Source of the DNA: Nakazawaea peltata
Taxonomy: Eukaryota > Ascomycota > Pichiomycetes > Alaninales > Pachysolenaceae
Length of the DNA stretch: 64,000 bases
Direction of reading: 5' to 3'
Assembly (NCBI GenBank): GCA_001599355.1
Contig: BCGQ01000001.1
Coordinates: 2,297,135-2,361,134, forward strand
Shown here: positions 1 through 46,236 of the stretch, one piece after another
How positions within the stretch are numbered: position 1 is the first letter of the stretch
Layout: the number at the start of each line of letters is the position of its first letter
Position numbers and translations under genes: made by a program
The notes under the pieces: generated by a model
Told to the model about the DNA's origin: nothing
Databases searched by the model: none
The model's input: only the letters and a program-made list of their open reading frames with translations

Positions 1-1555
1 TTCTATTAATGAACCACAACCTATCAAAAATAGCACTAAGGGATCTCCGCTTTTGAAGTCACGTCCACAATCTCCAAACGGTGTACCGTCCCCTGTATTG
101 ACTGGTCTGCAAGGCCTGCCACCTTCTAGACAGTCATCTTTGAGAAAGCCAAAGACCGATGTGAAGAAACTGCATCCTGAGAGGGCCATTTCCCCGGCTG
201 GTTTGGATTCGAGTGGGCAACAACAACAACAACAACATTCCACTGTATCATCTGTTGGGTTATCCAGAACTCCTTCCTCGGTCTCTAAAAGTGGACTGGC
301 TTCTTCTCATTCTGTCCAACAGAGCAGATTCATCATGCTCGAGGATGGTTTACATGAACATCACTTGAAGAATGCAAAGAGACAAGAGAAATTAGGACAT
401 ATGATTAAAGATTTACTCGGAGCTAAGAAATTGAGAAATGAGCTGGTGAGTGCTGTTCCAAATATCCTCAGCTCCGTGATACCACCTATCAGTGAGGAAC
501 CTACTATTCATGAGACCCCTCAACTGCAAAAACCTCAAGCCAATGCTCCTCCAAGTCTTTTGACAGGGTTGGTGAACCAAGTGAAACGTGGAGAAATCAC
601 CCAATATACACCACCTACCCCTCTGCAACAGCTTGCTCAACAACAACAGATCTCACTGACATCAACAATCAAAGTGGATTCTCGTTCATTTGTCGAGAAA
701 TATGGTACTTGTCAAGAAGTGATTGGTCGTGGAGCTTTCGGTGTGGTCAGAATCTCTCATAAGAAGGATAAAACCAGCGAGGTCTTCTACGCAGTCAAGG
801 AATTCAAAAGACGTCCTCAAGAAAGTGATAAGAAATACTCTAGACGGTTGACCTCGGAGTTCTGTATCTCTTCATCATTACAACATCCGAATATTATCCA
901 CACTTTGGATCTTCTTCAAGATCTGAAGGGAGATTATTGTGAGGTTATGGAATTCTGTACAGGTGGTGATTTGTACTCTCTTATTATTACACTGGGTAAA
1001 TTGGAGTACGTTGAGGCTGATTGTTTCTTCAAACAGTTGATGCGTGGTGTCAATTATATGCATGAGATGGGTGTAGCTCATCGTGACTTGAAGCCAGAGA
1101 ACTTATTACTCACTCTGAATGGTACATTGAAGATCACCGATTTCGGTAATAGTGAGTTATTCCGTACACTGTGGGAGACTGACATTCATTTAAGTGGTGG
1201 CGTATGTGGATCTTCGCCATACATTGCCCCAGAAGAGTACACTCTGGAAGAATTTGACCCTCGTAAAGTGGATATTTGGTCATGTGGAGTGATCTACATG
1301 GCAATGAGAACCGGACGTCAATTATGGAAGTTGGCAACCCCAGAAGATGAGTTTTACTCGACTTATCTTGAGAAGAGAAAAGATGCTGAGGGTTACGAGC
1401 CGATCGAAAGTCTTAAGCGCGCAAGATGTAGAAACGTGATATATTCGATCTTAGATCCTGTTCCTTCTAGGAGAATTACATCTAAACAAATTTTAAATAG
1501 TGAGTGGTGTCGTGAGATTAAATTATGTCACGCTGGTGAAGGGAAGGTGAATTAA
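1..1555 (+). CDS. SAT4: Ser/Thr protein kinase, Sat4/Hal4 family (5' end outside window)
   Basis: Protein kinase of the fungal Hal4/Hal5 group, which in S. cerevisiae stabilises the Trk potassium transporters at the plasma membrane and affects salt tolerance. The reading frame is open from base 2, so the true start lies upstream of the window. A low-complexity Ser/Pro/Gln region with a CAA run near 220-236 precedes the kinase domain. The domain shows the glycine loop GRGAFGVV (about 727-750), AVKEF with the catalytic Lys (about 790), HRDLKPEN (about 1079-1102), the DFG Asp and PEEY. The segments [15 protein letters not shown] and [14 protein letters not shown] are typical of Sat4/Hal5. The CTG at 1169-1171 falls where Sat4 has Ala in AWE. 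Family assignment is firm; Sat4 versus a close paralogue is less so. Confidence 0.85.
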
Positions 1556-1949
1556 GGATATTAAGGATATTTAATTTATGGATAGCAGGTGTGTAGCAGG
1601 TGTGGTTTTCAGGGTATTAATTTATTTATAGTATGTGTACTATGTCATCCCCTCACTTCCACCGATCTCACCCTTTCCACCACCCCTTGCCCCGACCCCT
1701 TCACTACCCCTTTATTACCCCTTTACTAATTTATGAGTTATGACGAATATTGATTTGTAATATCCCTGTAGCAATGTACATTTCTAGTAATACAGGGGCG
1801 GTGCCAAGCCCCCCAAAACTGAGCATCATCATTTTCTGTAAAAACAGCGCTCACCCAGCGCTCAGCCTATTAGTAAAAGGAAAAACAATTTGTAAAGAGA
1901 TTGTTTTTATAAATTCAAACAGCGGTAATACCATTAGATCTATCTAAAC
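1556..1949. other. Intergenic region between SAT4 and RVS161
   Basis: About 390 bases hold the SAT4 3' flank, a C-rich pyrimidine stretch (about 1645-1730) and the RVS161 promoter. No RNA gene or convincing ORF was seen. Confidence 0.6.
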
Positions 1950-2843
1950 ATGTCTTGGGAAGGGTTCAAGAAGGCTGTCAACAGAACTGCGGGATCGGTA
2001 AGTGAGAGAGTGAGTCAATTGATGTAGAGTGATACTAACCGCCATAGGTTGTTGTTAAAAGCACCGACAAGGTACTTGACAGAGATTATGATGCCGAAGA
2101 GAGAAGATATAAGACGTAAGTTGAATCGACATTGACATAGAAGGGATGATACTAACAATGATAGTCTTGAATCGGCCGGTAACAAATTACAGAAAGCCAC
2201 AAAAGGTTACTTGGATTCCATTAGACAAGTGACCTCATCGCAGGTCAATATTGCGGAGATCGTTCACAATTTGTATGAAGACTCGAAGGGGACTTCTTCA
2301 TATGGTAATATTGGACAAGTCTATTTGCAACTGGTTCAAGAATTCGATCAAGAGACCGTCAAGCAACTTGATGGTCCTTTCAGAGAGACCGTTTTAGATC
2401 CAGTGACTAAATTCTGTCAATACTTTAATGAGATCAATGAGGCTGTCAAGAAGAGAGCTCATAAGAAACAAGATTATGAATTGGCCAAGTCTAAAGTTAG
2501 AAGACTTATTGATAAGCCAGCCAAGGATGCCTCTAAGCTTCCAAGACTGGAACGTGAATTACAACTTGCTAAAGATATTTATGATGATTTGAATACTCAA
2601 TTGAAGGAGGAGTTACCTCAATTGATTGGGTTGAGAGTACCATATTTCGACCCATCGTTCGAGCTGTTAGTTAAGATCCAATTGAAGTTTTGTACCGAAG
2701 GTTATACCCGGTTGGCACAGATACAGCAGCATTTGGATCAAACGTCTAGAGATGAGTATGCCAATGGGTTATTGGATGGAAAGATTGATGATTTGATTGG
2801 TCAAATGAACAGTTTGAATATTTGTGCTTTAGGTCATAAATAG
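1950..2843 (+). CDS. RVS161: BAR-domain protein Rvs161, three exons
   Basis: N-BAR protein that pairs with Rvs167 to bend membrane at endocytic sites; it also acts in cell fusion. Exons are 1950-1997, 2048-2115 and 2165-2843. Both introns (50 and 49 nt) begin GTAAG and carry TACTAAC just before the acceptor (2033-2039 and about 2149-2155). The spliced product is 264 aa against 265 in S. cerevisiae. It starts MSWEGFKKAVNR and is nearly collinear with the yeast protein, including VPYFDPSFE, FCTEGYTRLAQIQQ and DEYANGLL. The CTG at 2664-2666 gives FE-x-LVKIQ where the yeast residue is Ala. A single-ORF reading would wrongly begin at a Leu codon at 2211. Confidence 0.95.
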
Positions 2844-3263: not shown

Positions 3264-6200
3264 ATGAAGAGGGTGCTAAAGCTCATTCACCAGATCCTCC
3301 ATGACAATGCTAACGCCAACTTCATTAGGAATTATTATAGTCGGTTGGCTCATCTGATCATTTGGAACCCGCGCCTCTTCATTATATGGCCAATTACAAT
3401 TGTCTTCATATTATCTTACCCCCTGCTCCATTCCATCTATACGTCTCCAAGGTTCAGGTTCCAGCCTTATTTATCTGATTTCAAGGGAGTCTCGGTGGAT
3501 CATCAGAATCTCTTACTATCAGATCCGGCTTTATTGGATGGTGTCAATTTACAAGTCAAGCAGATTTGGGTACAGCGATCTTTCCCAGATGACTTGGCTG
3601 ATCGCTCCTTTGGTTCTTCCAATGTATTGGACAAAGAATTTCTCCTAGAGGTGTTAGAATTACAGGATACATTGACGAACGGAATCTCAATGTCTTCGGA
3701 ATCTGCATTTATACATTCACCTTTACAATTATGGGATAATTCTAGAGACAAAATCATCAATGACTCGAAATTTTTCAAGACAGTGCATTCTTCAGCTTCA
3801 AAACAGTCTCCATTTGGCTTGACATTCTCTCATTCTACCATATTCTCAGGTATAGTCAAGGTGAATAGCTTATTGAAGTCGGCTGATAGTTTACTTATTA
3901 CGCTTGTTTATGATCCGGAGAGTGATGCTGGAGAAATTTGGGATAACAATTTGAGGTCACTTAATGGACCAGGCCATGATTTGGAGTCAGGTGAAAACAA
4001 TAGTTCGGAGTCGGCCCAGAATTCCACAGACCCTCCTAATTTTATCCTCTTCACGAATCAAGACACTCAAACCTTACAGAAATATCACATCAGTTTCTCT
4101 CCAATGCGTATTTCTGACACTCTACTCTTAATTGTGTCATACCTCGGATTATTTGTCTACTTTGTGATATCTCTTTCATGTATCAATGCGGTGAAATCTC
4201 GAGTTGGGCTTTTCGCTGCTTTTACTGTCGAAATCATTCTCTCAGTACTAGCGGCCATCTCCCTTTCGTCATATATCTTTCAAGATTTGGACTTCTTCTA
4301 TGTTCCATTGATGGTGTTGCCTTTTGTCGTCATTGTAGTAGGAATGGACAATATGCTTGGGTTAGTGAACACTGTGACGATGCTTCCTGATGAGTATCCA
4401 CTCGGACGTAAACTTTCAGACGCATTGACTACTAGGGGATTACTCTCTACATCGATTATTATGGTGGATATCTGTATCTTAATGGTGGTGATGCCATTCA
4501 TCTCACTGTCGGCATTCCAATTCTGTGTTTTCACCTCGATTTCTCTTGTGATTGATCATTTTCTTCATTTGACATACTTTGTGCTGGTTCTCAGTGTCGA
4601 TGTTCGTAGATTAGAATTAGAAGATTTGATCAGAAGGGAGCCACTGAAGGAGTTGTTGAATGATCAACTTCCTACTAGATACGGTGATAGTACCAGAAGA
4701 ATGGCTCCATGGACTAAAATAATGTCCAAATTCTTAGGTGGATCTCTGCCTCAAATGTTACCATCTCATAATCCATTATATGGATCTCAAAGATTATCAT
4801 TGAGGAGCAGAATTGGTCTGAAATTGGTGAGGATTAAAGTCGTTCCTTTCACCACCTCGGTAGTGGGGTCTATATTCCTTGTACTATTCCTCATATTTAC
4901 GAACTTGAGATGGATGAATTCTATTAAACCTGGAGGACACAGTTTGGCTCCTCATCATGCTCAACATGAGACATTGCTCAACCAAACAACCTTGGTATCT
5001 GACAATTACCATTTGACATTATCTGGTGATGGGTCACCATTCTTCCTTGGACAGAAATTGTCATCTGTCGAGTTGTCTCATATAACTGGTAAACATAATT
5101 TGACTATCCTTGTCGATGATACACAATTCCTTGTTCATAAGTCGGCATTTTTGGCCGGCAGTGAGTCTCAAAAAGACATTATCACCTCATCATCAACTAC
5201 CTACAAGTTTGATGTACATTATTTATTGGAATTTTTATCAAGTTTAGTCTTTGTGACCTCGATTCTCGGCTTGATCTTAAAGAAACTCATCAAGCAGGAA
5301 GATTATATTGAACTTCGGGAAAGAGACTCGTCCAATTCAAACTCTGTCTCATTTGATTTGAAATCAAAATTCACCTGTAAAGATTTGGTGAACGGTCATT
5401 ATTTGGATATTATCAAAGTGACTACTTCGGCCAATCCATTTGTGGTTTCTGTCGGAATGGACCATAAGATCTTTGTGTGGTCTCCAATATCAGATCCAAT
5501 TCCGTTACCTACTGAACTTCCTCTTCCCAGACAACTTTGGCATGTAACTAACGTGGTGATGTCCGACCCAGGTAACCTTATAGCCGTATTCAGCAAGTCT
5601 GGAACTATAAAATGTTGGTCACGTTTGACTATGTCATGGTGTTGGACAGTTCATATCGATGGGTTACGTGGTGGTAGTCAATTTTTAGAGCTGTTCTTCA
5701 GGAAACGTACGGCCACAATGTCGACAAAAAGAAAAGGTGTTCGGTCTAGATTCGGTCCAAGACCTTCTGAAGGTGTAGCACTTTCACGTACAATGTCCGT
5801 TGATTCGACTTTCAATCATAGTAACGACATTAAACTGTTACAAGAGAATCAAGATTATGACTTCATTATTGTCTTGAAGAGTGGTAAAATGTACACGATT
5901 CGTACTGAAGATGGGACAAAGACTGAACAAGAGATATCCCCTGTTCCTCTTATCGCAGCTAATCAAGTCATATCTCCAAGGGTTAATGATCGTTTGGTTT
6001 GTAATACCGAGACAGGAAAGCTTGTGATTGCAACAGCCATTAATAATAACTGGAAAGTGAGAAGTATCGATGTGAGGGAGGGATATAATTCAGGTCAAAG
6101 TCTTATGACACCCAAACTGATCTCTCGGACATCGAGTCTCAACAACAATTCTGTTCATCATCTACAGAAATTCCGCAGTGAGAATCGAGACAGCGATCTC

Positions 6201-7076
6201 TTTGTAGGCACGGAGATTGCAGTTGTCTCATTTGTTGGTATGATCGTAAGAACAAGAGGATTGATTGCCGAGTTGATCGATGTACAAACAGGAACCTTAG
6301 TCAAACGTTTCAATATTGGACAATTCAAGCCTGGAACCTTCAAAGTATTTCACTCGACTCCGGTGCATTGTCGTTTCTGTGGTTCAGCATCGGTCTCTTC
6401 ATTCTCAATTTGTTATACAGAACTTGATACGAATACGTTGATTCTCCAGACCTTCTCGATTGATAACAGAGCGAAGAACAATATCTGTTTACGTGTAGAG
6501 AGAGATTCCAGAGAGACCCGTTGTCTTGGTTTTGATAGTGTGACTGAACATCAACATTGGGTTGAAAATGTCGAAGGATGGTGTGTTACAGACTTGAATA
6601 TGATTTTAGGAATACACAAGAAGGACCCTGAATCCTTACAGTCTAATTCTTCTGCTTACAGTTCTTCTTTCTCCAAATCCGATAACCTTTTCACATCAAG
6701 AAATAGACGATTCAAAACTAGTGCGACATCTTCAGTTAAGAGTGATGATGCCGAACAATATCATATCGACAAGATTTGGGAGGGATTCTCCTTGAATGCA
6801 AATGGAAAAATAACATATCACGAGATACCTAATACGTCTAATGACGGGTTGCTTGTGAAAAGAATTGGGCCGGTAGCCAAGTTTGGACATAAATCGATCT
6901 TGGTGAGTTTCGGAAATATTCTCAAGGTGTTGTATACGGGAAGTGGTAATTTATTTGATCTGGAAGTTGATACAGACAACGGAGGGGGTGTTAGTAGATT
7001 AGGATTTATAAGTAGAAGGAAGAGGATGAATATAGTTAGTTATCAAATGACACATTCTACGGATTTTGGGTCATGA
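3264..7076 (+). CDS. SCP1: SCAP-like sterol sensor (SREBP cleavage-activating protein homologue)
   Basis: ER membrane escort and sterol sensor that holds SREBP-type factors and releases them to the Golgi when sterol falls. The start is the ATG at 3264, in a good ACC context, giving 1270 aa; the frame runs upstream only through a TTG. One membrane helix lies at about residues 28-56. A sterol-sensing domain of clustered helices spans about 282-447 and includes FFYVPLMVLPFVVIVVGMDN. It ends in LSVDVRRLELEDL. LELEDL at 450-455 matches the COPII-sorting MELADL of animal SCAP (447-452). Further helices lie near 530 and 660, followed by a degenerate WD40 half (about 700-1270). S. cerevisiae has no SCAP. 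Convergent with ARO8, with 61 bases between stops. Confidence 0.85.
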   Translation: MKRVLKLIHQILHDNANANFIRNYYSRLAHLIIWNPRLFIIWPITIVFILSYPLLHSIYTSPRFRFQPYLSDFKGVSVDHQNLLLSDPALLDGVNLQVKQIWVQRSFPDDLADRSFGSSNVLDKEFLLEVLELQDTLTNGISMSSESAFIHSPLQLWDNSRDKIINDSKFFKTVHSSASKQSPFGLTFSHSTIFSGIVKVNSLLKSADSLLITLVYDPESDAGEIWDNNLRSLNGPGHDLESGENNSSESAQNSTDPPNFILFTNQDTQTLQKYHISFSPMRISDTLLLIVSYLGLFVYFVISLSCINAVKSRVGLFAAFTVEIILSVLAAISLSSYIFQDLDFFYVPLMVLPFVVIVVGMDNMLGLVNTVTMLPDEYPLGRKLSDALTTRGLLSTSIIMVDICILMVVMPFISLSAFQFCVFTSISLVIDHFLHLTYFVLVLSVDVRRLELEDLIRREPLKELLNDQLPTRYGDSTRRMAPWTKIMSKFLGGSLPQMLPSHNPLYGSQRLSLRSRIGLKLVRIKVVPFTTSVVGSIFLVLFLIFTNLRWMNSIKPGGHSLAPHHAQHETLLNQTTLVSDNYHLTLSGDGSPFFLGQKLSSVELSHITGKHNLTILVDDTQFLVHKSAFLAGSESQKDIITSSSTTYKFDVHYLLEFLSSLVFVTSILGLILKKLIKQEDYIELRERDSSNSNSVSFDLKSKFTCKDLVNGHYLDIIKVTTSANPFVVSVGMDHKIFVWSPISDPIPLPTELPLPRQLWHVTNVVMSDPGNLIAVFSKSGTIKCWSRLTMSWCWTVHIDGLRGGSQFLELFFRKRTATMSTKRKGVRSRFGPRPSEGVALSRTMSVDSTFNHSNDIKLLQENQDYDFIIVLKSGKMYTIRTEDGTKTEQEISPVPLIAANQVISPRVNDRLVCNTETGKLVIATAINNNWKVRSIDVREGYNSGQSLMTPKLISRTSSLNNNSVHHLQKFRSENRDSDLFVGTEIAVVSFVGMIVRTRGLIAELIDVQTGTLVKRFNIGQFKPGTFKVFHSTPVHCRFCGSASVSSFSICYTELDTNTLILQTFSIDNRAKNNICLRVERDSRETRCLGFDSVTEHQHWVENVEGWCVTDLNMILGIHKKDPESLQSNSSAYSSSFSKSDNLFTSRNRRFKTSATSSVKSDDAEQYHIDKIWEGFSLNANGKITYHEIPNTSNDGLLVKRIGPVAKFGHKSILVSFGNILKVLYTGSGNLFDLEVDTDNGGGVSRLGFISRRKRMNIVSYQMTHSTDFGS

Positions 7077-9331: not shown

Positions 9332-10534
9332 ATGGCCCCTCCCGCTGGATATCGTAAAAGAAGACAAAGGTCCACTCATCAGGCCCAACCATACAACGTC
9401 CATCATTCCCATCATGGAATGCAAAGACTGCAACCAGTCCGCCAATTACACCAACTTCGAGAGGACGTTCACGATGAAATGGATATAATCAGTGTCAAGC
9501 AGGAAGCTAGTAAGAAGTACACTTTGAATCATAACCTTTTAGAGAACATCACAAGCAAATATATATCATTGGAGGGAGTGATTCCTCCAGATTCATTCCC
9601 AGGAGCTGTCATTCAGGGCATCAAGTACTCTGAACCACCAAGAAACACAGAAGATACAAGTAATAAAGAGCTTATTGAAAGAGAAGAGTTGATATTAAAG
9701 AGTAAATTGTTCAATTTATTCCCAAATGACATCACATTTGGAGATTTGAAGTTGATGAAGTTGAAACTCCGGATGTTAGAAGAAGAAATTGAGCCTTTGG
9801 AAGCCGAGAAGGATTTACCATACGGTTTTGGTGAAGAGTTTAACTACCAACAGCTGAAAACTGAGGAAATGGCCAAAAGTTTCGGAGAATTGGGGTCTAC
9901 TGATTCCTACAAGAAACTCGAGACCCTTGTGGATACCATCATATCCAAGGATTATGGAGGAGAGAAGTTCCCTAAGAAGAAAATCATTGAAGCCGATCGT
10001 TTCTCAGTCTTTTCACAACCAAATCTCATGAAGAATAAGATCACAAGAGCTGCTGTTGAAGAGGAACGTAAGAAAGTGCAACCTCCTATACTGCAACCAT
10101 CTCAACCAGCTCCAGCTCCTCAACCATCTCTTCTGCCTCCAACACCTCACTCCAATGATAATATCTCCAGACCTTTGGATTTGCTGCCCACTGGACCTCC
10201 TTCTCAACCACAAGAGTTCGGTCCGGATCCTAACTTTGACATTTATCCACAACATCCACCGGCTCCTATAACGGCTCTGGCTGGGGACAATGACGATCAG
10301 CCAATTGCACCTCTGCCTGAGATGACTGCTCCAGAACCACAAACCCAAGCTCCTCCACCACCACCATCTCAATTCCCATCAGGTGATTTAGACAATTTCG
10401 CAATGTTCCCTGGAAATGACAAGGACTTATTTGGAGACCATGCAGAGGATGATATGTTGATGGACGATTCCGCATTCAATGGGTTGCAATCCACTTTAGA
10501 TGACCAGATATTCTTCGACCATAGTTTGGAGTAA
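9332..10534 (+). CDS. Putative SWI/SNF subunit, Snf6-like
   Basis: 400-aa protein with no catalytic domain. A basic N-terminus (YRKRRQRSTH) is followed by HDEMDIIS, close to the HDESDTIS of yeast Snf6. Next comes a helical central region (about 60-240, LNHNLLENITSKYISLEG and charged Leu/Glu helices). A Pro/Gln-rich linker (about 250-355) leads to an acidic, aromatic C-terminus (MFPGNDKDLFGDHAEDDM). This order of basic head, DxxDxIS motif and acidic DLFGD-type tail resembles Snf6, a small SWI/SNF chromatin remodeller subunit that acts in the nucleus. Similarity is weak, so another nuclear coactivator subunit is possible. Convergent with GPI13. Confidence 0.45.
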   Translation: MAPPAGYRKRRQRSTHQAQPYNVHHSHHGMQRLQPVRQLHQLREDVHDEMDIISVKQEASKKYTLNHNLLENITSKYISLEGVIPPDSFPGAVIQGIKYSEPPRNTEDTSNKELIEREELILKSKLFNLFPNDITFGDLKLMKLKLRMLEEEIEPLEAEKDLPYGFGEEFNYQQLKTEEMAKSFGELGSTDSYKKLETLVDTIISKDYGGEKFPKKKIIEADRFSVFSQPNLMKNKITRAAVEEERKKVQPPILQPSQPAPAPQPSLLPPTPHSNDNISRPLDLLPTGPPSQPQEFGPDPNFDIYPQHPPAPITALAGDNDDQPIAPLPEMTAPEPQTQAPPPPPSQFPSGDLDNFAMFPGNDKDLFGDHAEDDMLMDDSAFNGLQSTLDDQIFFDHSLE

Positions 10535-17322: not shown

Positions 17323-18756
17323 TTATTGTTTCTCCTCAGAGTTGGAGTTCTCAGTAGCAGCCTCTTCATCTGGAATAGTAGCACCTTGGAGAGACTTAAC
17401 AGATCTGATTGGCTCTGGAATGTACATCTCCTCTTCTTGGTAGGTGAATTCACCGATTTGAGCAGAGTCGGTACCTAATTCTTCCTCGTCCTCAGATAAT
17501 CTGATCTTCAAGAATGGAATTCTGTTGAAGACCAACAATAAGATAGCGGTTACACAGAAGGACCAGGCGAAAGTGGCGCAACAAGCAGCCAATTGGTAAC
17601 CCAATTGGACGTAGTTGTGGTTAATCCAACCACCGGCAATTTCGGCACCGTTCAAAGCGGCAACGTAGTCGGCAGCGAACAAACCAGTACAGATGGAACC
17701 AACGAAACCACCGATACCGTGCAAGGCAAAGACATCCATACCGTCATCGATACCTAAGACACCCTTCAAGTCGACACCAAAGTTACAAGCAATGGCAGTG
17801 ACAATACCGATTGGAACGGCAAAGTAAACTGGGACGAAACCGGCAGCTGGAGTAATACCAACCAAACCAGCAATGGCACCAGAACACATACCAACGGTGG
17901 TCCATTTCTTACCACATCTGAAGTAGTCGACAACCATCCAAGTCAAACCACCAACGGCAGCAGCCAAGTTGGTGTTAACGTTGGCGTAGTAAGATCTCAT
18001 ACTAGCATCACCGGTAGAACCACCGTTGAAACCGAACCAACCGAACCACAAGAAAACGGTACCAAGAACAACAGAGGTAACACTGTGTGGTCTGTATTTT
18101 GGTAAACCTTTTTGAGCAACTGGGTCATTTCTCTTACCACAAATCAAAGCGTAAGCAAGAGCACCGACACCAGAGTTGATGTGAACAGGTCCTCCACCGG
18201 CAAAGTCCAAAGCACCCAAAGTACATAACCAACCGTTAGCGTTCCAAGTCCATTGCAGAATTGGACAGTAGACAACGGTAATCCAACAGAACAAGAAGAC
18301 CATCATTGGACCCAATCTAGCTCTCTCGGCAGCACCACCCAACATCAAAATACCAGTGACACCAGCGAACATACCTTGGAAGTTACAGAAAAGAATTTCT
18401 GGAACAGTGGTAGCAACAGCCAGGTTACCAAGAACCTCCTTCAAACAGAAGTTCTTCATGGTACCAAGGAAAATAGAAGCGTCTTCGGCGAAAACTAAAG
18501 AGTAACCCCAGAAGAACCATTGGAAAGAAATCAAAGACAGAGCCATCATAGAAGCCCATAAAAGAGACAAAGCATGCTTCTTTCTAGATAAACCAGAGTA
18601 TAACAAACCAATACCTGGAATCATAATCCACACAAGGGCGGCACTAACACCAACCCAAACCATATCGGCTCTGTCGAAACGTTGGTTCAAGTCAGTGGTA
18701 AGGGAGTCACCTCCGGTACCGTAGTCGGTCAATCCCGATGCTAATCCAGTAGACAT
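17323..18756 (-). CDS. MEP2: Ammonium transporter, Mep2 type
   Basis: Plasma-membrane ammonium transceptor of the Amt/Mep/Rh family. 477 aa with about 11 helices. The pore twin histidines are H192 (GGPVHINSG) and H346 (FALHGIGG); H192 favours Mep2 over Mep1/Mep3. The C-tail retains ELGTDSAQIGEFTY and IPEPIRSVKS. S452 after R451 lines up with the Npr1-dependent phosphoserine that opens yeast and Candida Mep2. Codon use is strongly biased, suggesting high expression. The CTG at 18256-18258 (codon 167) is in CPI-x-QWTW, where Mep proteins have Ala. GATAAG sites lie upstream. Start ATG is clear. Confidence 0.93.
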   Translation of the reverse strand: MSTGLASGLTDYGTGGDSLTTDLNQRFDRADMVWVGVSAALVWIMIPGIGLLYSGLSRKKHALSLLWASMMALSLISFQWFFWGYSLVFAEDASIFLGTMKNFCLKEVLGNLAVATTVPEILFCNFQGMFAGVTGILMLGGAAERARLGPMMVFLFCWITVVYCPILQWTWNANGWLCTLGALDFAGGGPVHINSGVGALAYALICGKRNDPVAQKGLPKYRPHSVTSVVLGTVFLWFGWFGFNGGSTGDASMRSYYANVNTNLAAAVGGLTWMVVDYFRCGKKWTTVGMCSGAIAGLVGITPAAGFVPVYFAVPIGIVTAIACNFGVDLKGVLGIDDGMDVFALHGIGGFVGSICTGLFAADYVAALNGAEIAGGWINHNYVQLGYQLAACCATFAWSFCVTAILLLVFNRIPFLKIRLSEDEEELGTDSAQIGEFTYQEEEMYIPEPIRSVKSLQGATIPDEEAATENSNSEEKQ

Positions 18757-21043: not shown

Positions 21044-21614
21044 TGTCTACTCCTTAGTCTCTCCAGTCTCACTACATAGCATAACAATCTGTAAGCTTGT
21101 GACTTCTCTGAGTGAACTAAAAGGTCGTTCATAACTGCCCAATTCCCAATTAGGAGCCCTAAATATTCCATATTTAAGGTGAAAAAATTTTCTAAAGGAG
21201 GTTTCAATTATCCTTTACAAGATTAGCGAAGAGCTAAACTTATGGATTACGTATAGTTATGGTGAAAATTGTATTGAACAGTAGTTCTATACACCGTTCT
21301 CCATTTATATGTAAACTTACACTCCTACTTCTGCCCCACTTTCTTAAAATAAATAGATTACTGGGTTCTGTTTACGGAGAAGATCAAGCCAATGGTCATG
21401 AATTTATGATTTGATACTTCGTGAATTCTATATGATCATTGGATCGTGTGGATTTGATGGCTTATTTTAGAGGGAGATTTTAATTCTCTATAATTTTCCC
21501 CTCGCCAAGTTACATCGTCACTACATTTTCTAAGTGTAAAACCAGTGAAAAATGGATCTTTATTTAGTAAATCTTTTGTCTAATATAAATCGAAAACAGC
21601 CCTTAATGGAATTC
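21044..21614. other. Intergenic region Ldb16-like / VMA9
   Basis: 570 bases, AT-rich, holding the Ldb16-like promoter and the VMA9 3' flank. No repeat, RNA gene or believable ORF was seen. Confidence 0.5.
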
Positions 21615-23927: not shown

Positions 23928-25337
23928 ATGAGCACTGAAGAGTATATGATCAAGCCGGAAAGCGTTGCTCCAAGCAATGACACCTCTGACTGGCCATTAT
24001 TGTTGAAGAACTACGACAAGTTATTGGTCAGATCTGGACATTACACTCCTATCCCACTGGGATGTTCCCCTTTGAAGAGAGATTTGAAGTCCTATGTTTC
24101 ATCTGGTGTTATCAACTTGGATAAACCATCCAACCCATCTTCCCACGAGGTTGTAGCATGGATCAAGAGAATCTTGAGAGTTGAGAAGACCGGTCATTCT
24201 GGTACTTTGGATCCTAAAGTTACTGGTTGTTTGATCGTCTGTGTTGACAGAGCTACCAGATTGGTCAAATCCCAACAAGGAGCTGGTAAAGAGTATGTCT
24301 GTATTGTCAGATTACACGACGCCTTGAAAGATGAGAAGGACATGGCCAGAGGATTGGAGAATTTGACTGGTGCTTTGTTCCAAAGACCACCTTTAATTTC
24401 TGCCGTCAAGAGACAATTAAGAGTTAGAACCATCTACGATTCCAATTTGATAGAATTCGACAACAAGAGAGGGTTGGGTGTTTTCTGGGCCTCTTGTGAA
24501 GCCGGTACCTATATGAGAACCTTGTGTGTCCATCTTGGTATGTTATTGGGTGTTGGTGGTCACATGCAAGAATTGAGAAGAGTAAGATCTGGTGCTTTGG
24601 GTGAGAACCAAAACTTGGTTACTTTGCATGACGTTATGGATGCTCAATGGACTTACGATAACTCTAGAGATGAAAGTTATTTGAGAAGAATTGTCCAACC
24701 TTTGGAAACTTTGTTGGTTGGTTACAAGAGAATTGTCGTCAAGGATTCTGCCGTTAACTCTGTTTGTTACGGTGCTAAATTGATGATCCCAGGTTTGTTG
24801 CGTTATGAAGCTGGTATTGAATTGTACGACGAGGTTGTCTTAATGACCACTAAGGGTGAAGCCATTGCCATTGCCATTGCTCAAATGACCACCGTTGATT
24901 TATCCACTTGTGACCACGGTACCGTTGCCAAGGTCAAGAGATGTATTATGGAGAGAGACACATACCCAAGAAGATGGGGATTGGGTCCAGTTGCTCAAAA
25001 GAAGAAGCAAATGAAGGCCGACGGAAAGTTGGACAAATTCGGTAGAGCTAATGAGAACACTCCAGAATCATGGAAGAAGGAATACAAGAGTCATGAAGAT
25101 GAGGTCCCACCTCCAGTACCTGAAGCTAAATTGCAAGACCCAGAAGTTCAAAAATCTAAATCCTCTTTATTGAGTACTTCCTCTGACGTCTCTGAATCTC
25201 CAAAGAAGGAGAAGAAGGAGAAGAAAGAGAAGAAGGAAAAGAAAGAGAAGAAGGAAAAGAAGGAGAAGAAGAGAAAGCTGGATGATGGCGAAGAAGACGG
25301 TGAAAAGAAGAAGAAGAAGAAGTCCAAGAAGGATTAG
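23928..25337 (+). CDS. CBF5: H/ACA snoRNP pseudouridine synthase (dyskerin)
   Basis: Catalytic subunit of box H/ACA snoRNPs; it makes pseudouridines in rRNA and snRNA in the nucleolus. 469 aa, near-identical over its core to S. cerevisiae Cbf5. The TruB catalytic aspartate is D95 in [16 protein letters not shown] domain follows (about 260-340), with [15 protein letters not shown]. The C-terminus is a KKE/KKEK repeat tail, normal for the family. Codon 44 (CTG, 24057-24059) in HYTPIP[10 protein letters not shown] is Ala in yeast. Codon bias is strong. Start ATG at 23928 matches the family N-terminus in length. Confidence 0.97.
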
Positions 25338-25757: not shown

Positions 25758-26765
25758 ATGGTTAAAGAAAGCAAATTATATGACTTGTTAGGAGTCTCGC
25801 CTTCTGCAAGTGACCAAGAGATTAAGAAGGCATATAGAAAATCGGCTTTGAAATACCATCCTGATAAACCAGGAGGAAATGAAGAGAAGTTCAAGCAAAT
25901 TTCAGAGCTGTTCGATATCTTGTCGAACCCAGACAAAAGAGAGGTATATGATCAATATGGATTAGAGCTGGCCAGAGGTAATGCACCAGCTGGTGGTAAC
26001 CCATTTGCAGGCGCTGGAGGAGCTGGCGGTCCTCAATTCAATTTCTCATCAGGATTCCCAGGTGGAGGTGCTGGTGGTCATCCATTCTCGCGTGCTGATC
26101 TGTTCAATATCTTTTCTCAATTTGGAGGATTCGGCGGGGGNGATGAAGATATGTTCTCCGGATTTGGTGGTGGTGGAAGTCCATTTGGAGCTGGTGGAAT
26201 GCCAGGTGGATATCAACAATCAAGACCTAAGAGAGAACCAGAAGTTGTCACTATGAAGTTGCCTTGTACATTAGAAGAATTATATGAAGGTAAGGTTAAA
26301 AAGATGAAAGTTAATAGTAAGAACCCAAGTGGTCAAATACAATCTAACATTTTACAAATCGATGTCAAACCAGGTTATAAAGCGGGAACTGCCGTAAGTT
26401 TCCCTAATCAAGGTGATTATCAACCTGATGGTCAACGTCAAACCATCAAATTTGTCGTTGAAGAGAAACCACATCCTTTGTTCCAAAGAGAAGACAACAA
26501 TTTAAAGATGACAATCCCATTATCATTTAAAGAGAGTTTATTGGGATTCCAAAAAGAGATCACCACCATTGATGGAAGAAAAATCTCATTAGCCAAATCC
26601 CAACCAGTACAACCTGGTTTAATAAGTACATACCCTGGCTTAGGAATGCCTATCCGTAAGGGAGGTCAAGTCACCGGTAGAGGAGACTTGATTATTCAAT
26701 TCAAGGTAGACTATCCTCTTACTTTGTCACCAAACCAAAGAGAGGCTATCCAATCTTACTTTTGA
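25758..26765 (+). CDS. SIS1: Class B J-domain co-chaperone Sis1
   Basis: Hsp40 partner of cytosolic Hsp70 (Ssa), essential in yeast for translation, prion propagation and misfolded-protein handling. 335 aa. The J domain (1-70) has HPD at 34-36. A Gly/Phe-rich region (about 75-160) is followed by two beta-sandwich substrate domains and a short dimerisation tail. There is no zinc finger, so it is Sis1 rather than Ydj1. The opening [17 protein letters not shown] differs from the yeast protein at few positions. Three CTG codons (25908, 25968, 26100) fall on yeast Ala residues. One ambiguous base at 26141 leaves a residue undetermined in the Gly-rich part. Confidence 0.96.
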
Positions 26766-27080: not shown

Positions 27081-27992
27081 ATGTCTGTCATATTGGCATC
27101 AGCAGGTTACGATCATACGATCAGATTCTGGGAAGCGTTGACCGGTGTTTGCTCAAGAACTATCCAACATACAGACAGTCAAGTTAACCGGTTGGAAATT
27201 ACTTCCGACAAGAGATACTTAGCAGCAGCAGGTCATTTGCACGTTAGATTATATGATATCAAGGCATCCAATCCTAACCCTGTCGTATCATTTGAGGGGC
27301 ACACCACCAATGTGACATCAGTACAGTTTCAAACCGATAATAAATGGATGGTAACTTCATCTGAAGATGGTACTGTTAAAGTATGGGACACCAGATCTCC
27401 TGTGGTGCAGAGAAATTATAAGCACAACTGCCCTGTGAATGAAGTAGTGATACATCCTAATCAGGGAGAATTGATTTCATGTGATCAAGATGGTAATGTT
27501 AGAATTTGGGATCTTGGAGAAAATCAATGTACTCATCAACTTATTCCTGAAGATGATGTTCCAGTCAAGAGTGTTAGTGTTGCTTCTGATGGTAGTATGC
27601 TTGTTGCAGGTAATAACAAAGGTAACTGTTATGTATGGAAGATGATTAATCAGAAGGATGTTACATCATTGCAGCCTATTACCAAGTTTAAATCACATTC
27701 AAAATATATAACTAGAGTGCTATTAAGTTCAGATGTTAAACATCTTGCTACATGTTCTCTGGATCATACCGCTAGATTATGGGATGTCGACAACAACTTT
27801 AGTATAGAGACAAGTCTCCGTGGACATCAAAGATGGGTATGGGATTGTGCATTCAGTGCTGATAGTGCGTATTTGGTTACTGCCTGTTCAGATCATTACG
27901 TTAGATTATGGGATTTGGCTACAAGTGAGACCGTAAGACAATATAACGGCCATCACAAAGGAGCTGTTTGTGTAGCACTTAATGATGTATAA
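27081..27992 (+). CDS. LST8: TORC1/TORC2 subunit Lst8 (WD40)
   Basis: Seven-bladed WD40 protein that binds and stabilises the Tor kinase domain in both TOR complexes; also needed for amino acid permease sorting. 303 aa, the family length, beginning MSVILASAGYDHTIRFWEALTG and ending GHHKGAVCVALNDV, both nearly invariant. The CTG at 27759-27761 (codon 227) gives CS-x-DHTARLW where yeast has Ala. The stop codon lies inside the 3' end of the convergent SET/MYND gene, with a 14-base overlap. Confidence 0.97.
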   Translation: MSVILASAGYDHTIRFWEALTGVCSRTIQHTDSQVNRLEITSDKRYLAAAGHLHVRLYDIKASNPNPVVSFEGHTTNVTSVQFQTDNKWMVTSSEDGTVKVWDTRSPVVQRNYKHNCPVNEVVIHPNQGELISCDQDGNVRIWDLGENQCTHQLIPEDDVPVKSVSVASDGSMLVAGNNKGNCYVWKMINQKDVTSLQPITKFKSHSKYITRVLLSSDVKHLATCSLDHTARLWDVDNNFSIETSLRGHQRWVWDCAFSADSAYLVTACSDHYVRLWDLATSETVRQYNGHHKGAVCVALNDV

Positions 27993-32574: not shown

Positions 32575-34683
32575 TTATTTATTTGGATCTCTTCTAAATA
32601 GACTTTTGCCCGCCAATTGAGTGCCGAATTGGTTGCCGTCGCGCGGGAAGCTCCCCCAGTTGGTTTGGCTCAGAGATGTCGCCAGATCTGCGCTCGTCAT
32701 CCCTATTTTGTTGCCCGGTTGCGCATACGAAGGATAAGGAAATATTTGTGGGACGGAGGGCTCTTTATCCAGCAGATTGTTAGTATCGAAAGTGAAAACC
32801 TGAGGAAGATCACTTTTGTTTTTCTCTGCCTCAAATTGTCGCTGTTGATATTGGTTGAATTCTATAAACATATTATTTGTTGAGATATTTTCATCCCGAC
32901 GTCTCTTACGTTCCACTTTCTCTTTGATCGCTTCATCATTCATATATTTCTCTAGGAAACTGAGATTCGATTCTCGAACAAAAGTCGACATGAACATACT
33001 AAACATTACCAGTGATTCACTTGTTTGATGCAGATCAAAAAATGGTTTAATTTGATGCAATAAAGCTTGTGTAGTTTCTTGTAATTCAGATAAATCCCCG
33101 TGATCCCCGAATAATTTTTGCGTAGGACCCTTTTCGGACAATTCAGTCTCTTCGTTTCCTAAGCCGGTTGCACCTGCAATTCCCGACCCGACATCTTCTG
33201 CTATCTCATTTTTTACAAGGAGTACAATATCAATATCGGACATCCGCTCATTCCCCACAGCCTCCTCGGCCGGAAAGATAAATCTATCGATTGTAGTAGT
33301 GAACCGAATTAAGTTCCGATCATCAAAGATCTTGAGCAATCCAATTAATTGAGATTCTTTATTTTTGTCTCTAAATGTGAACATCCGATGATCGTTATTT
33401 TCATTAGAATCATTGTTCTCTCCCATAGATGGCATCAATCCGGAAAATTGGAAACATTGTTCCCGTAGATCTTTATATTCCACCACCAATTCTTCCCACA
33501 GTCGATATATGAATCCTATTAGATCTACTTTAGTAAATTTAAGATCACTAAGCCCACAAACTAATCGCTTCAAGCACAATTGTAAAATATTATCTTTCAC
33601 CATGACTTTGAAAAGTCTCGATATTCCATAAGATAATGGGCTATATTTAAGATCATTTAATGACTTGGCAAAAAATATCAACTCTATGTTGGGAATCTCA
33701 GTCATTGGAATAAAATGCAGGTACAAGTTATCGACCAATATAGCAATCTTCTCTCCCTTTGGAATACTATCATGTAACAGTTTCAAGTAATGGTAGAAGA
33801 TTTCCTCTGTGACCAAACAATTTTTGTTAATAAATAAATTTCTATGGTGTGTTACCCCTTGAAATCGAGTATTTGTCACAATCATTGGAGGAAATCTGCT
33901 TGAACCATCACCATTAACTAATAAACCAACTACAACTCTACGACTAGGATCCGGAAAAGACAAATCGCTCAATGAAGAGATTCTTGAGGGTACTTGTTGT
34001 TTAGAATGGAGATAATCCAAATGATCACAAAAGCTGACCTCATCAAAATTATAAATCTGATGAGGTTTATAGCCTTGAAGTAAAGCTTTAATACGAGCTT
34101 TTTCTTGATCCAAGGTCACAATTCCCTGTTGAGCTGGATCCGAGTGATATTCCTGCATGATATCTCTTGTTGTAGCATGTCTCTTCTTGAAATGATGTAA
34201 CCAACCAGTGGATTTGTCTATCAAACCTGTTTCGTCCGAAAATGATCTATGAAATTCTGCCCATTTAGTCAAGAGCATCCTCTCAGTACAACGTAAGTTT
34301 TCATTTAACAGTTGTTTATAGTAATATTCAAGGCATTTATTAGGCCCTGGAAATTTGAACTTGGGTTTAGTCTTGTACAGATTAGTACCACCAGTGATCC
34401 TAAATTGTTCATATTCTTTCCTAAGAGCCGGCTCTTGAGACACCCATCTATTCAAACTAGATCTAGTCACTGCAAACTCCCCCAATCTTTTGAAATGTTC
34501 CACTGTAGCGATTTGACTTTTCTTATCTGATTGTTGATGCCAATCCAAGACCTCGATCTTTTGCAGTAACGTAGCACGAGGAAGCTTCTTGTCCTCTAAG
34601 TCTCTCTTTTCCTGACCACTCGAAGATGTCCCCGAAAGCAATTCCGGGTCTGCAACAATAGTTCCACTGCTCTCGACACTCAT
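32575..34683 (-). CDS. Domesticated CENP-B/pogo-type transposase, probable DNA-binding regulator
   Basis: 702 aa. An N-terminal psq-type helix-turn-helix (about 38-90, LLQKIEVLDWHQQSDKKSQI) is followed by a second CENP-B HTH (about 108-178, LTKWAEFHRSF and STGWLHHFKKRH). A DDE-1 endonuclease fold spans about 205-360. The first two acidic positions are present (D214 in YNFDEVSF, D318 in ILVDNLYLH). The third, normally in a LDQGI motif, is Ser351 in SPLSYGISRLFK. The loss suggests a non-catalytic host protein. Budding yeasts keep such genes as PDC2/RAG3-like thiamine and glycolysis regulators, and fission yeast as Abp1/Cbh1. No terminal repeats were noticed and the frame is intact. Which regulator it is cannot be told. 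Confidence 0.75.
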   Translation of the reverse strand: MSVESSGTIVADPELLSGTSSSGQEKRDLEDKKLPRATLLQKIEVLDWHQQSDKKSQIATVEHFKRLGEFAVTRSSLNRWVSQEPALRKEYEQFRITGGTNLYKTKPKFKFPGPNKCLEYYYKQLLNENLRCTERMLLTKWAEFHRSFSDETGLIDKSTGWLHHFKKRHATTRDIMQEYHSDPAQQGIVTLDQEKARIKALLQGYKPHQIYNFDEVSFCDHLDYLHSKQQVPSRISSLSDLSFPDPSRRVVVGLLVNGDGSSRFPPMIVTNTRFQGVTHHRNLFINKNCLVTEEIFYHYLKLLHDSIPKGEKIAILVDNLYLHFIPMTEIPNIELIFFAKSLNDLKYSPLSYGISRLFKVMVKDNILQLCLKRLVCGLSDLKFTKVDLIGFIYRLWEELVVEYKDLREQCFQFSGLMPSMGENNDSNENNDHRMFTFRDKNKESQLIGLLKIFDDRNLIRFTTTIDRFIFPAEEAVGNERMSDIDIVLLVKNEIAEDVGSGIAGATGLGNEETELSEKGPTQKLFGDHGDLSELQETTQALLHQIKPFFDLHQTSESLVMFSMFMSTFVRESNLSFLEKYMNDEAIKEKVERKRRRDENISTNNMFIEFNQYQQRQFEAEKNKSDLPQVFTFDTNNLLDKEPSVPQIFPYPSYAQPGNKIGMTSADLATSLSQTNWGSFPRDGNQFGTQLAGKSLFRRDPNK

Positions 34684-37608: not shown

Positions 37609-37803
37609 ATGAATTCATTTTGGTAAGTTGATCACAATGCTCAAACGAAATTTACATGATGATAAAACTTTTGTTGCTTGAATAATCAATGTGAGCACAA
37701 TGATTTCTCAATAGACTACAACGGTATCTGACAGTTACAAAATTTCTATGAAAGGGCGGTTAAGATGGAGGAAGTTTGCAAGTACTAACATTAGGATATA
37801 AGA
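37609..37803 (+). promoter_or_regulatory. Probable SEN2 5'-UTR intron with junction-spanning uORF
   Basis: GTAAGT at 37623 and TACTAAC at 37784-37790 followed by ATTAG (acceptor 37794-37795) define a 173-nt intron just upstream of SEN2. The only ATG before it (37609) starts ATGAATTCATTTTG. After splicing it reads MNSFWI and stops at TAG (37800-37802), one base before the SEN2 ATG. No in-frame extension of SEN2 results. Confidence 0.6.
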
Positions 37804-40055: not shown

Positions 40056-40094
<39 letters not shown>

Positions 40095-41418: not shown

Positions 41419-42699
<1,281 letters not shown>

Positions 42700-42888
42700 C
42701 TACTTACCCACCAATTCCTTCACTATGTAAGTGCAGTTGCGGAAATAAGAGCAGGATTCTGCCTAAAAAATTTTCATTTTCCCATACTAAAAATCCCGTG
42801 CCAATAAGGATGAAAAATCAAGGTGAAAAAAGTTTGGATAAATCTGGTTCAAGATGGTATTGAGGAGTAAGAGATTCAACAGATCATA

Positions 42889-43368: not shown

Positions 43369-43660
43369 GTTACCTTACCCACTGTATATAACTATAATAT
43401 GAACATTGATATTTGATGCACGACTGTATAGTATCTTTCCTATTTTTTTTATCTTAATTTGATATTTATACACGACTTTATCAAACTCTCATTCGTTATT
43501 ATCATATCTTATTTGATATTTCATACACGACCTTATCGGCTACTAGTACCCATCTCTCCCTTATCTGAAGCCTCATAGAATTGCGGCAGAGAAAAGAAGG
43601 AATCAAAATTGTGGCTAGAGCAGTTAGGACTAGAGCAGCGGTTAATAGTCTGGTCAAACC

Positions 43661-45043
43661 ATGTCATCCAGTAGTACTTCTGCAGTCATCAACTTGTTGA
43701 ATACCATTGTCGGGAGCGGTATGCTCCTGATGTCTTATGGTATTAAACTGAACGGGTTGGTTTTAGGCTGTTGTGTTATTCTTTTCAGCGCTAGTACTTC
43801 TCTGTTGGGGTTGTATTTACAGAATAGAAGTTCTCAATTTGTTAGTGAAGGACATGCTTCGTTCTTTGCCTTATCCCAGTTAACATATCCCTCTTTAAGT
43901 GTGGTTTTCGATCTGGCTATCGCTATCAAATGTTTCGGTGTTGGTATCTCTTATCTTGTTGTTATTGGAGATTTGATGCCAAAGATTGTTCAATCGCTTT
44001 CTGATATAGATTCAGGTTTATTGGTACATAGAAACTTCTGGGTATCACTTTTCATGCTCATTGTCGTACCGTTATCATTCTTAAGAAAACTTGACTCTTT
44101 AAAGTATGCCTCTATGGTTGCTCTTTCGTCTGTTTTTTACCTTGTTGTGTTGGTATTTGTACATTTCTTTAGACATGACATTGCTGATAAGGGACCAGTT
44201 CGTGTTTTGGAACCTCTGGGTTTCCTTTCAGTTGTGTCTCTGTTCCCAATTTTTGTATTTGCCTATACCTGTCATCAAAATATGTTCTCTCTTATCAATG
44301 AATTGGAGAATAAATCTGTTAAGAACGTCAATAAGGTGATCTTGACAGCCATTGGAACAGCCCTGATGTTATATATAGCTGTGGGAGTATCAGGATACTT
44401 AACATTTGGTGATCATGTTGGTGGAAATATCATTGTGATGTATCCTGATTCCAAATCTTCAACCTTTGGAAGAATGGCCATCGTTGTTCTTGTTACACTT
44501 TCGTATCCATTACAATGTCATCCATGTAGAGCTTCTGTGAATCATGTTATTCACCATTTCAAGCATCGTCATGAACAGAATAAAGTCAATCAAAGAAAGA
44601 TAAAGAGATTTAATGAAAGATTAGAATCAGATACAAGTACTATGACCACTGGAACTACTACATCAGAGAGACAAAGTTTATTGAATTGGCACCATGATGA
44701 ACTTTTAGAAGAAGGAGCTATCAACCAAGTACAAGTAGTCCCGTTGAATACCAAGAGGTTCATAATCTTGACAAGTTCCATTTTAACCCTCTCGTATTTA
44801 GTCGCCATCACAGTCACGTCTTTAGAAAAAGTGTTAGGATTTGTTGGGTCGACTGGATCCACCTCGATCAGTTTTATCTTGCCTGGTATTTTTGGTTATA
44901 AATTGATTGGATCTGATCTGGTGGGCCCAATATCTCTCCAAGATAAGATTCTCCGTTATTTAGCATTGGCATTAAGCTTTTGGGGGGTCATCGTCATGAT
45001 TGTGAGCCTTTCAGCCACAATGTTCCTTGGGGCCAAACATTAG
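43661..45043 (+). CDS. AVT7: Vacuolar amino acid transporter, Avt7 type
   Basis: AAAP-family transporter that exports neutral amino acids from the vacuole in yeast. 460 aa with about 11 helices and a central hydrophilic loop (about 305-365). It aligns well to S. cerevisiae Avt7: the first helix NLLNTIVGSGML, CFGVGISYLVVIGDLMP, ELENKSVKN, SGYLTFGD and GSTGSTSISFILPGIFGYKLIGSD. The CTG at 43727-43729 (codon 23) is Ala in yeast (TLAIPY). Another CTG in FD-x-AIAIKCFG is Leu in yeast, a position that varies in the family. Avt5/Avt6 are less similar. Confidence 0.87.
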   Translation: MSSSSTSAVINLLNTIVGSGMLLMSYGIKLNGLVLGCCVILFSASTSLLGLYLQNRSSQFVSEGHASFFALSQLTYPSLSVVFDLAIAIKCFGVGISYLVVIGDLMPKIVQSLSDIDSGLLVHRNFWVSLFMLIVVPLSFLRKLDSLKYASMVALSSVFYLVVLVFVHFFRHDIADKGPVRVLEPLGFLSVVSLFPIFVFAYTCHQNMFSLINELENKSVKNVNKVILTAIGTALMLYIAVGVSGYLTFGDHVGGNIIVMYPDSKSSTFGRMAIVVLVTLSYPLQCHPCRASVNHVIHHFKHRHEQNKVNQRKIKRFNERLESDTSTMTTGTTTSERQSLLNWHHDELLEEGAINQVQVVPLNTKRFIILTSSILTLSYLVAITVTSLEKVLGFVGSTGSTSISFILPGIFGYKLIGSDLVGPISLQDKILRYLALALSFWGVIVMIVSLSATMFLGAKH

Positions 45044-45342
45044 ACCTTTTTTGCCCTCTATTGTATTCTTAACGCGTACTATAAATGTTTGTGCATTGTA
45101 GCTTTAAATTCGATATTTGCCCCCTTTTTTTAATGCGTTTTGCCCCTTTTTTCTGTCCTAACGCCTAACCTTTCCGGTGCAGTACTAATAAAATAAAAAT
45201 TTTCGTGTTTTTCTGCCCTGATCCCCCATTTTTGTTTGTTTTCATTTTCTTGCTCGTGATCCATAAGAAGAGTTGTTGATTTATTACATTGGGAAGACGG
45301 GACTTTAAGACGATATAAACACATTTCAGCTATTATTCCGCG

Positions 45343-46236
45343 ATGCCTTTCGTTATTTCCAACATTACAGCTGATCCATTTGCCATCGGTACCTTATCGG
45401 TGATGTCGGTAGCATGGTTGATCTCGTTCATTGGCGCGATTGCTTCGGATGTCAAAGGGTCATTTCCTACTCTTTCATGGTGGGGACTTGTATGGCAGTT
45501 ACTTACCAATATCTCTATTACTGTGTTGTATTTGACTGATACTCTTGAATATTACCGTGTATTGATCGTTGGTATGATTAGTGTTGCTTTTGTTTATAGT
45601 ACCAACTCATCTAACTATTTAGTTTATGGTACTTCTTCTGCTGCTCTGGCTGCCGCCGCTGGTTTCATCTTAACTTCCATGGTTAATGTATTTTGGTTAG
45701 TTTATTTCGGTGGTGATCCTTCTAGTCCAACTTCTCAGTGGGTTGACAGTTTCTCTGGTGCTCCTAGAGCTTCGGGCGTTGCCCGTGGAGGTATGCAACA
45801 ACCACCACTGAAGATGATGACTGAAAACTCTACTAATCTGAATCCATTCGCATATTCTACAGCTGCTGAAAACACTGCCCTGGTTCAACATCCACCTTAT
45901 ATGGCTTCTTCTACTCACTTGAATGGATTGGAAAATGGAGAAGAACCAACTGGTCCAGGTTATTACAGTTCTACAGCTCTGGCCGTTAACGCTAACAATG
46001 ATTTGAGTGATGATGATCTTGAAAATGATGACATCGAAGAGGTTGAGAGCTATCCATACACTGTTAGACTGTTATACGATTATGAGGCCAACCCAGCTGA
46101 TGCCACCGAGTTGTCTTTCAGTAAAGGTGAAATCTTGAAGGTTCAATCTACAGATGGAAGATGGTGGCAAGCAAAGAATTCTCTGGGTAAGGTAGGTATC
46201 TTGCCTAGTAATTACGTTGAGAAAGTGGATCAGTAA
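45343..46236 (+). CDS. SHO1: Osmosensor Sho1
   Basis: Plasma-membrane adaptor of the HOG, filamentous-growth and polarity pathways. 297 aa. Four membrane helices lie in residues about 14-120, with PFAIGTLSVMSVAWLISFIGAIAS and VYSTNSSNYLVYGTSSAA. A Gly/Ser/Asn linker leads to a C-terminal SH3 domain (about 238-295) that binds Pbs2; it has GRWWQAKN and GILPSNYVE. The SH3 hallmark ALYDY reads x-LYDY with CTG at 46069-46071 (codon 243), the clearest single case for CTG as Ala. Length is shorter than yeast Sho1 (367) through a shorter linker. Confidence 0.95.
   Translation: MPFVISNITADPFAIGTLSVMSVAWLISFIGAIASDVKGSFPTLSWWGLVWQLLTNISITVLYLTDTLEYYRVLIVGMISVAFVYSTNSSNYLVYGTSSAALAAAAGFILTSMVNVFWLVYFGGDPSSPTSQWVDSFSGAPRASGVARGGMQQPPLKMMTENSTNLNPFAYSTAAENTALVQHPPYMASSTHLNGLENGEEPTGPGYYSSTALAVNANNDLSDDDLENDDIEEVESYPYTVRLLYDYEANPADATELSFSKGEILKVQSTDGRWWQAKNSLGKVGILPSNYVEKVDQ

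Follow-up and report, generated by a model that had tools for sequence, protein, structure and literature searches.

The window analysed here, a 64,000-base stretch of Nakazawaea peltata contig BCGQ01000001.1 (39% G+C), is very probably nuclear budding-yeast DNA in which the codon CUG is translated as alanine (NCBI code 26), as judged from the proteins that it encodes. CTG positions are under alanine constraint rather than leucine or serine constraint, and conserved leucines use other codons. This code is already known and no departure from it was found in the window. Our analysis was based on 31 of the 35 open reading frames (ORFs) of at least 100 amino acids, the other four being left out for their overlap with longer ORFs. 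CTG accounts for 237 of the 15,944 codons of these 31 ORFs (stop codons counted), or approximately 1.5%. A preliminary description of the window had proposed that CUG encodes alanine on the basis of eleven in-frame CTG codons, and our results support this interpretation: alanine was the best of 20 candidate meanings in a likelihood test and the best of alanine, serine and leucine in summed Pfam scores.

Since these eleven sites had been hand-picked by eye, every aligned CTG was tabulated instead. With CTG codons masked as X, ten queries (whole proteins or fragments) from nine genes were run against solved structures. One solved orthologue was then realigned per region, which gave 11 alignments covering 3,157 codons, and every aligned codon was counted; a second Cdc27 chain, DKC1, the extra Lst8 and Sis1 chains and a second Tel1 chain were kept out of the counts. 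Aligned columns contained 36 of the 237 CTG codons and the other 201 are located in regions or genes outside the alignments. Alanine was the residue most often found opposite these 36 codons (13 sites), followed by proline, methionine, lysine and serine (three each), leucine and tyrosine (two each), and glutamine, glycine, threonine, arginine, histidine, asparagine and aspartate (one apiece). In the five alignments with at least 67% identity, the 11 CTG codons faced alanine eight times, proline twice and methionine once, and never leucine or serine, so that CTG was not mainly opposite conserved leucine or serine. For GCN codons in the same five alignments, alanine was opposite at 73 of 107 positions.

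The meaning of CTG was then evaluated with a likelihood test, which compared 20 candidate amino acids by means of residue profiles derived from the remaining codons, with amino-acid background frequencies as a weak prior. Across the 36 codons, alanine ranked first, with a likelihood 10^8.9 times that of serine and 10^24 times that of leucine. As a control, the same procedure returned the standard meaning for 57 of the 60 other sense codons, although methionine and tryptophan, with one codon each, depend on the prior alone in this run. The three misses (TCG, AGG and CCC) had small margins of 10^0.16, 10^0.25 and 10^0.53, respectively. The window resembles NCBI table 26 (nuclear code of Pachysolen tannophilus) and the CUG-Ala clade in that CTG aligns with alanine and not with leucine or serine, and no difference from them was demonstrated. 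We considered a second reassignment for TCG, which was opposite serine at only 3 of 20 aligned positions across all 11 alignments, unlike the other serine codons. This candidate was rejected: once the alignments were split by conservation, the comparison with the other serine codons gave p = 0.10 and p = 0.24, and no residue stood out. The neighbouring codons CTA (n = 7), CTT (n = 50) and CTC all tested as leucine, with margins of only 10^1.27 for CTA and 10^0.85 for CTC, which limits the evidence of reassignment to CTG. Capture of leucine-box codons by alanine is likewise reported for Ashbya mitochondria, where it concerns other codons (CUU and CUA) and the mitochondrial genome (PMC3874161); CTT and CTA are read as leucine in the window.

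Under the standard code, CUG would be leucine and the eleven sites would reflect chance or errors in the orthologue residues assumed. The five other leucine codons had leucine opposite at 206 of 328 positions, against 2 of 36 for CTG (p = 8e-12), and alanine opposite at only 4 of 328, against 13 of 36 for CTG (Fisher's exact test, p = 1.7e-11). Moreover, CTG was used at 0 of the 113 sites of the better-conserved alignments that pair a leucine of the orthologue with a leucine-family codon of the window. If CTG were a leucine codon its expected share would be approximately 13% (237/1,811), which yields p = 1.3e-7 for this absence. Some observations speak for leucine and against alanine. Both leucine-facing CTG codons are in TEL1, in an alignment with 32% identity; one of them, at 58029, is opposite a gap in HMMER's own alignment. 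In addition, the TEL1 CTG at 57801 is opposite leucine in the second Tel1 chain, which is outside the counts. Leucine was also nominally the best reading for two Pfam domains, M24 and EMP70, by 0.6 and 0.1 bits. With a likelihood 10^24 times lower than that of alanine, leucine is nonetheless an extremely improbable meaning of CUG in this DNA. Our realignment differed from that of HMMER at three sites of TEL1 and CDC27: tyrosine rather than lysine at 58350, leucine rather than a gap at 58029 and, at 47490, no alignment rather than lysine. The two Cdc27 chains also differ from each other at several sites.

A serine reading of the type found in CUG-Ser1 (Candida) and CUG-Ser2 (Ascoidea, Saccharomycopsis) yeasts requires closer examination because serine is tolerated at many alanine sites and the pattern could mislead. 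Indeed, the six less-conserved alignments (25 CTG codons) barely separate the two amino acids, with alanine leading serine by 10^0.46 only, and this counts against a firm choice of alanine from these alignments. However, actual serine codons do not behave like CTG. Alanine was opposite 18 of 232 serine codons compared to 13 of 36 CTG codons (p = 2e-5), and in the better-conserved alignments the corresponding counts were 7 of 93 and 8 of 11 (p = 3e-6). Serine itself was opposite CTG at 3 of 36 positions overall and at 0 of 11 in the better-conserved alignments. Together with the 10^8.9-fold lower likelihood and the summed profile scores described below, these results make serine a very unlikely main meaning, and the window differs in this respect from the CUG-Ser1 clade (Serinales, e.g., Candida albicans; NCBI table 12), in which the same codon was taken from leucine.

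All eleven positions of the preliminary description were confirmed to be CTG, in the frame and context that had been given. The description had also stated that each site corresponds to alanine and none to serine. Both statements hold for the seven sites compared with a solved orthologue, the best chain having alanine at each. Molecule names below are those of the structure records and the species of the chains are presumed. The MEP2 codon (18256..18258, minus strand; YCPI[CTG]QWTW) is opposite alanine in 5aez, which we take to be C. albicans Mep2. The CBF5 codon (24057..24059, plus strand; TPIP[CTG]GCSP) is opposite alanine in 9g25 and 3u28, presumably yeast Cbf5 chains, and opposite cysteine in DKC1 (7bgb). 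Two plus-strand codons are found in the J domain of SIS1: the first (25908..25910; QISE[CTG]FDIL) faces alanine in all five chains listed, including Sis1 4rwu, and the second (25968..25970; YGLE[CTG]ARGN) does so in four of the five, again including 4rwu, with glycine in DNAJB1. The sole CTG of LST8 (27759..27761, plus strand; ATCS[CTG]DHTAR) is opposite alanine in all three chains listed, which further argues against serine. Finally, alanine is found opposite the MAP2 codon (42166..42168, minus strand; NHCA[CTG]HYTP) in MetAP2 5jfr and opposite the codon of the SHO1 SH3 domain (46069..46071, plus strand; TVR[CTG]LYDY) in 2vkn.

The four remaining sites, all on the plus strand, gave a more mixed picture. 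For three of them we scored Pfam fragments in which this CTG alone was varied, and leucine had the lowest score in all three. The codon of the RVS161 BAR domain (2664..2666; DPSFE[CTG]LVKIQ) slightly favoured alanine over serine (55.6 bits for alanine, 55.1 for serine and 52.6 for leucine). The statements on alanine and serine did not hold for the other two fragments, which belong to broad families and scored serine marginally above alanine: the SAT4-like kinase codon (1169..1171; FRT[CTG]WET) gave 18.3 bits with alanine, 19.2 with serine and 17.2 with leucine in the Pkinase fragment, and the AVT7-like transporter codon (43727..43729; GSGML[CTG]MSYGI) gave 22.7, 23.2 and 19.5 bits, respectively, in the Aa_trans fragment. 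These two sites lean towards a serine reading, but such fragment scores are not decisive between alanine and serine at either site. Pfam identifies the SAT4-like ORF as a protein kinase, and the gene name is that of the preliminary description. The fourth site, in the glycine-rich linker of SIS1 (26100..26102; SRAD[CTG]FNIFSQF), is in frame and lies outside the reach of the listed Sis1 chains; three distant DNAJB13-type chains presented one glycine and two gaps in poorly aligned stretches. Separately, single ambiguous bases (N) occur at 26141, 52456 and 52467, one of them within SIS1. RVS161 appears by eye to contain two introns of approximately 50 bases (1998-2047 and 2116-2164, plus strand), each with GTAAGT, a branch-point-like GATACTAAC motif and a terminal TAG.

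Tabulating all aligned codons revealed further CTG sites opposite alanine beyond those originally listed. On the minus strand, these are a second MEP2 codon (18538..18540; SMMA[CTG]SLIS; alanine in 5aez), a second MAP2 codon (41563..41565; KYLL[CTG]LNQL; alanine in 5jfr) and two codons of TEL1, one in the kinase region (56628..56630; DRIK[CTG]FHSI; alanine in Tel1 6s8f) and one at 58185..58187 (VSKA[CTG]KFQL; alanine in 6s8f, isoleucine in the 6sky chain). The CDC27 ORF (47352..49433, plus strand), which possesses 17 CTG codons and shows the biggest single-gene effect in the Pfam test, contributed two others: 47820..47822 (AYSE[CTG]LKLN), opposite alanine in Cdc27 8a3t and serine in the 5g04 chain, and 49023..49025 in the TPR region (HFRK[CTG]LEIN), opposite alanine in both chains.

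We then scored the same ORFs against profiles after translation with NCBI tables 26 (alanine), 12 (serine) and 1 (leucine), using 20 Pfam domain scores with one model per domain, picked after the scores were known. Two ORFs were exceptions: the ORF at 9332 was scored with alanine only and the GPI-transferase ORF with alanine and serine only. Summed over the 20 domains, alanine exceeded serine by 23.2 bits and leucine by 82.3 bits, and without CDC27 these differences were 11.7 and 51.7 bits. Alanine was best or tied in 13 domains, serine best or tied in six and leucine best in two. The scores with alanine, serine and leucine were, respectively, 107.2, 101.5 and 89.2 bits for TPR_2 and 75.2, 69.4 and 62.6 bits for ANAPC3 in CDC27, 46.8, 43.0 and 41.1 bits for SH3_1 in SHO1 (spanning both CTG codons of the domain), and 147.1, 145.2 and 141.7 bits for the BAR domain of RVS161.

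Several profile scores weigh against alanine and most of them favour serine. Serine was ahead in Pkinase (by 3.0 bits), Aa_trans (2.0), Arrestin_C (1.4), SET (1.1) and UEV (0.7), and was equal to alanine in RFX_DBD. Among NCBIfam models, amt scored 434.8 bits with serine and 434.2 with alanine, and one of the two Cbf5 models put leucine ahead by 0.7 bits. For LST8, a repeat protein, the result depended on the model. The WD40 model that we used gave 168.9 bits with alanine, 167.7 with serine and 168.2 with leucine, but several propeller models preferred serine, such as PF25173 (174.8, 218.8 and 173.5 bits, in the same order) and PF24807 (108.5, 136.9 and 115.4 bits). Replacing WD40 by PF25173 would turn the summed difference between alanine and serine from +23 to about -22 bits. 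These propeller scores shift with the number of joined stretches, PF25173 joining four instead of three with serine. Since 44 bits is too much for one residue and the orthologues have alanine at this site, we take the preference for a repeat-summing artefact. The dependence of the sum on the LST8 model implies, however, that the Pfam sum separates alanine from leucine better than alanine from serine. The lean of M24 towards leucine disappeared with the family-specific NCBIfam model of MetAP2 (TIGR00501), for which the whole MAP2 ORF scored 385.0 bits with alanine, 382.1 with serine and 377.5 with leucine.

It is also conceivable that CUG is ambiguous, being read mainly as alanine and partly as serine or leucine through competing or mischarged tRNAs. 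Alignment methods reveal the main meaning only, and passages of PMC8629427 report ambiguous decoding in some Ascoidea and Saccharomycopsis. None of the 11 CTG codons of the better-conserved alignments is opposite leucine or serine, and nothing in the window calls for a second meaning. We therefore regard ambiguity as improbable and retain alanine as the meaning of CUG.

CTG represents 237 of the 956 alanine codons of the 31 ORFs (24.8%) and its use is uneven. Its share of alanine codons was 10% where the orthologue has alanine (13/125), 22% at other aligned positions (23/104) and 28% outside the alignments (201/727). This depletion was significant both for aligned compared to unaligned positions (p = 2e-4) and for conserved alanines compared to other aligned positions (p = 0.018). 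In the better-conserved alignments, the site-level share did not differ between the two kinds of aligned position (8/81 vs. 3/37, p = 1.0); the depletion was visible only in the less-conserved alignments, with 5/44 at conserved alanines and 20/67 elsewhere (p = 0.035). Across 26 of the 27 listed genes (those with at least 10 alanine-type codons), the share of CTG dropped with the share of TTG (Spearman's rho = -0.47, p = 0.016), and the relationship with the share of GCT plus GCC was less clear (-0.37, p = 0.065). This correlation indicates that gene-level codon preference accounts for part of the depletion of CTG at conserved alanines.

At least two base changes separate CTG from any GCN codon, and there is no one-step synonymous route between them. 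As a consequence, CTG is expected to enter conserved alanine positions more slowly. Among codons at non-alanine sites, 10 of 23 CTG codons were opposite a one-step neighbour (proline, glutamine, arginine, methionine, valine or leucine), compared to 16 of 81 GCN codons (p = 0.03), although these numbers are small and this is one p-value among several. As an idea rather than a result, this suggests that a reassigned and isolated CTG is still spreading, chiefly from non-alanine ancestors. CTG is not obviously rare in the window, and it is present at some conserved alanines, though scarcer there. For recoded clades, passages of PMC5951914 describe CUG as infrequent and concentrated at poorly conserved sites.

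The gene content of the window is that of a budding yeast, with matches to Mep2 (71% identity), Cbf5 (90% over the first 324 residues), Lst8 (79%) and the J domain of Sis1 (72%), and weaker matches to Cdc27, Sho1, Vps23 and Tel1. Two yeast snoRNA families identified with Rfam above their gathering scores add to this content: snR43 (21320-21528, plus strand, 105 bits) and snR79 (37652-37733, plus strand, 84 bits). NCBI taxonomy assigns Nakazawaea to Alaninales, Pachysolenaceae, and the inferred code would itself place the window in the order Alaninales. An origin in a yeast outside Pachysolenaceae, which would imply a second, independent emergence of the CUG-Ala code, is improbable. Passages of Krassowski et al. 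2018 (PMC5951914) list Nakazawaea, Peterozyma and Pachysolen as the CUG-Ala clade, defined by BLAST-based prediction in 52 species and by LC-MS/MS (liquid chromatography-tandem mass spectrometry) of 18 species, and date the discovery of CUG as alanine to 2016 only. In a 2014 analysis of motor and cytoskeletal proteins, described in passages of PMC4986446, CUG was absent from the highly conserved leucine positions of Pachysolen, which was classed under the then-alternative (serine) CUG usage. Codetta's CUG predictions match the known distribution in 453 of 462 yeasts, as stated in passages of PMC8629427.

On the model of the published CUG-Ala species, the tRNA-Leu(CAG) of the ancestor would be gone or silent, and CUG would now be read by the product of a duplicated tRNA-Ala gene whose anticodon changed to CAG. 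Alanyl-tRNA synthetase (AlaRS) would charge this tRNA because it requires no particular anticodon bases, a property described in passages of PMC5951914, where the synthetase of the new amino acid in the CUG-Ser1 clade is likewise free of such a requirement. No tRNA gene was detected in the 64-kb window by ARAGORN with its default and two intron-allowed settings or by Rfam above gathering score. Lowering ARAGORN's thresholds to 80% yielded 107 matches, which we took as noise; at least one of them is located inside the coding sequence of RVS161.

Other features of the window were observed along the way. The LSM4-like ORF (a presumed gene name) closes with two successive CTG codons before its stop (55794-55799, plus strand), and its last residues would thus be Ala-Ala. 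The TMN/EMP70 frame runs upstream past the ATG at 54181 into a GTATGT...ATACTAAC...TTTTTAG stretch (54610-54668, minus strand), so that its first exon is probably beyond an intron and the ATG-based ORF would be truncated at its start. At 3264-7076 (plus strand), a 1,270-amino acid protein presents a sterol-sensing domain (Pfam PF12349, 89 bits) similar to the one in SREBP cleavage-activating protein, which appears to have been lost from S. cerevisiae. Finally, a 702-amino acid ORF at 32575-34683 (minus strand) resembles, by eye, a relative of CENP-B/pogo-type transposases.

Sense codons of nuclear genes are very rarely reassigned, and the CUG-Ala code was recognisable here from 64 kb alone. 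Translating this DNA with the standard or the Candida code puts a wrong residue at every CTG, i.e., approximately 1.5% of codons, including conserved residues such as the one in the NHCAAH stretch of MetAP2. Finally, how CTG is divided among conserved and free alanines bears on the way in which a reassigned codon spreads when it has no one-step synonymous neighbour.

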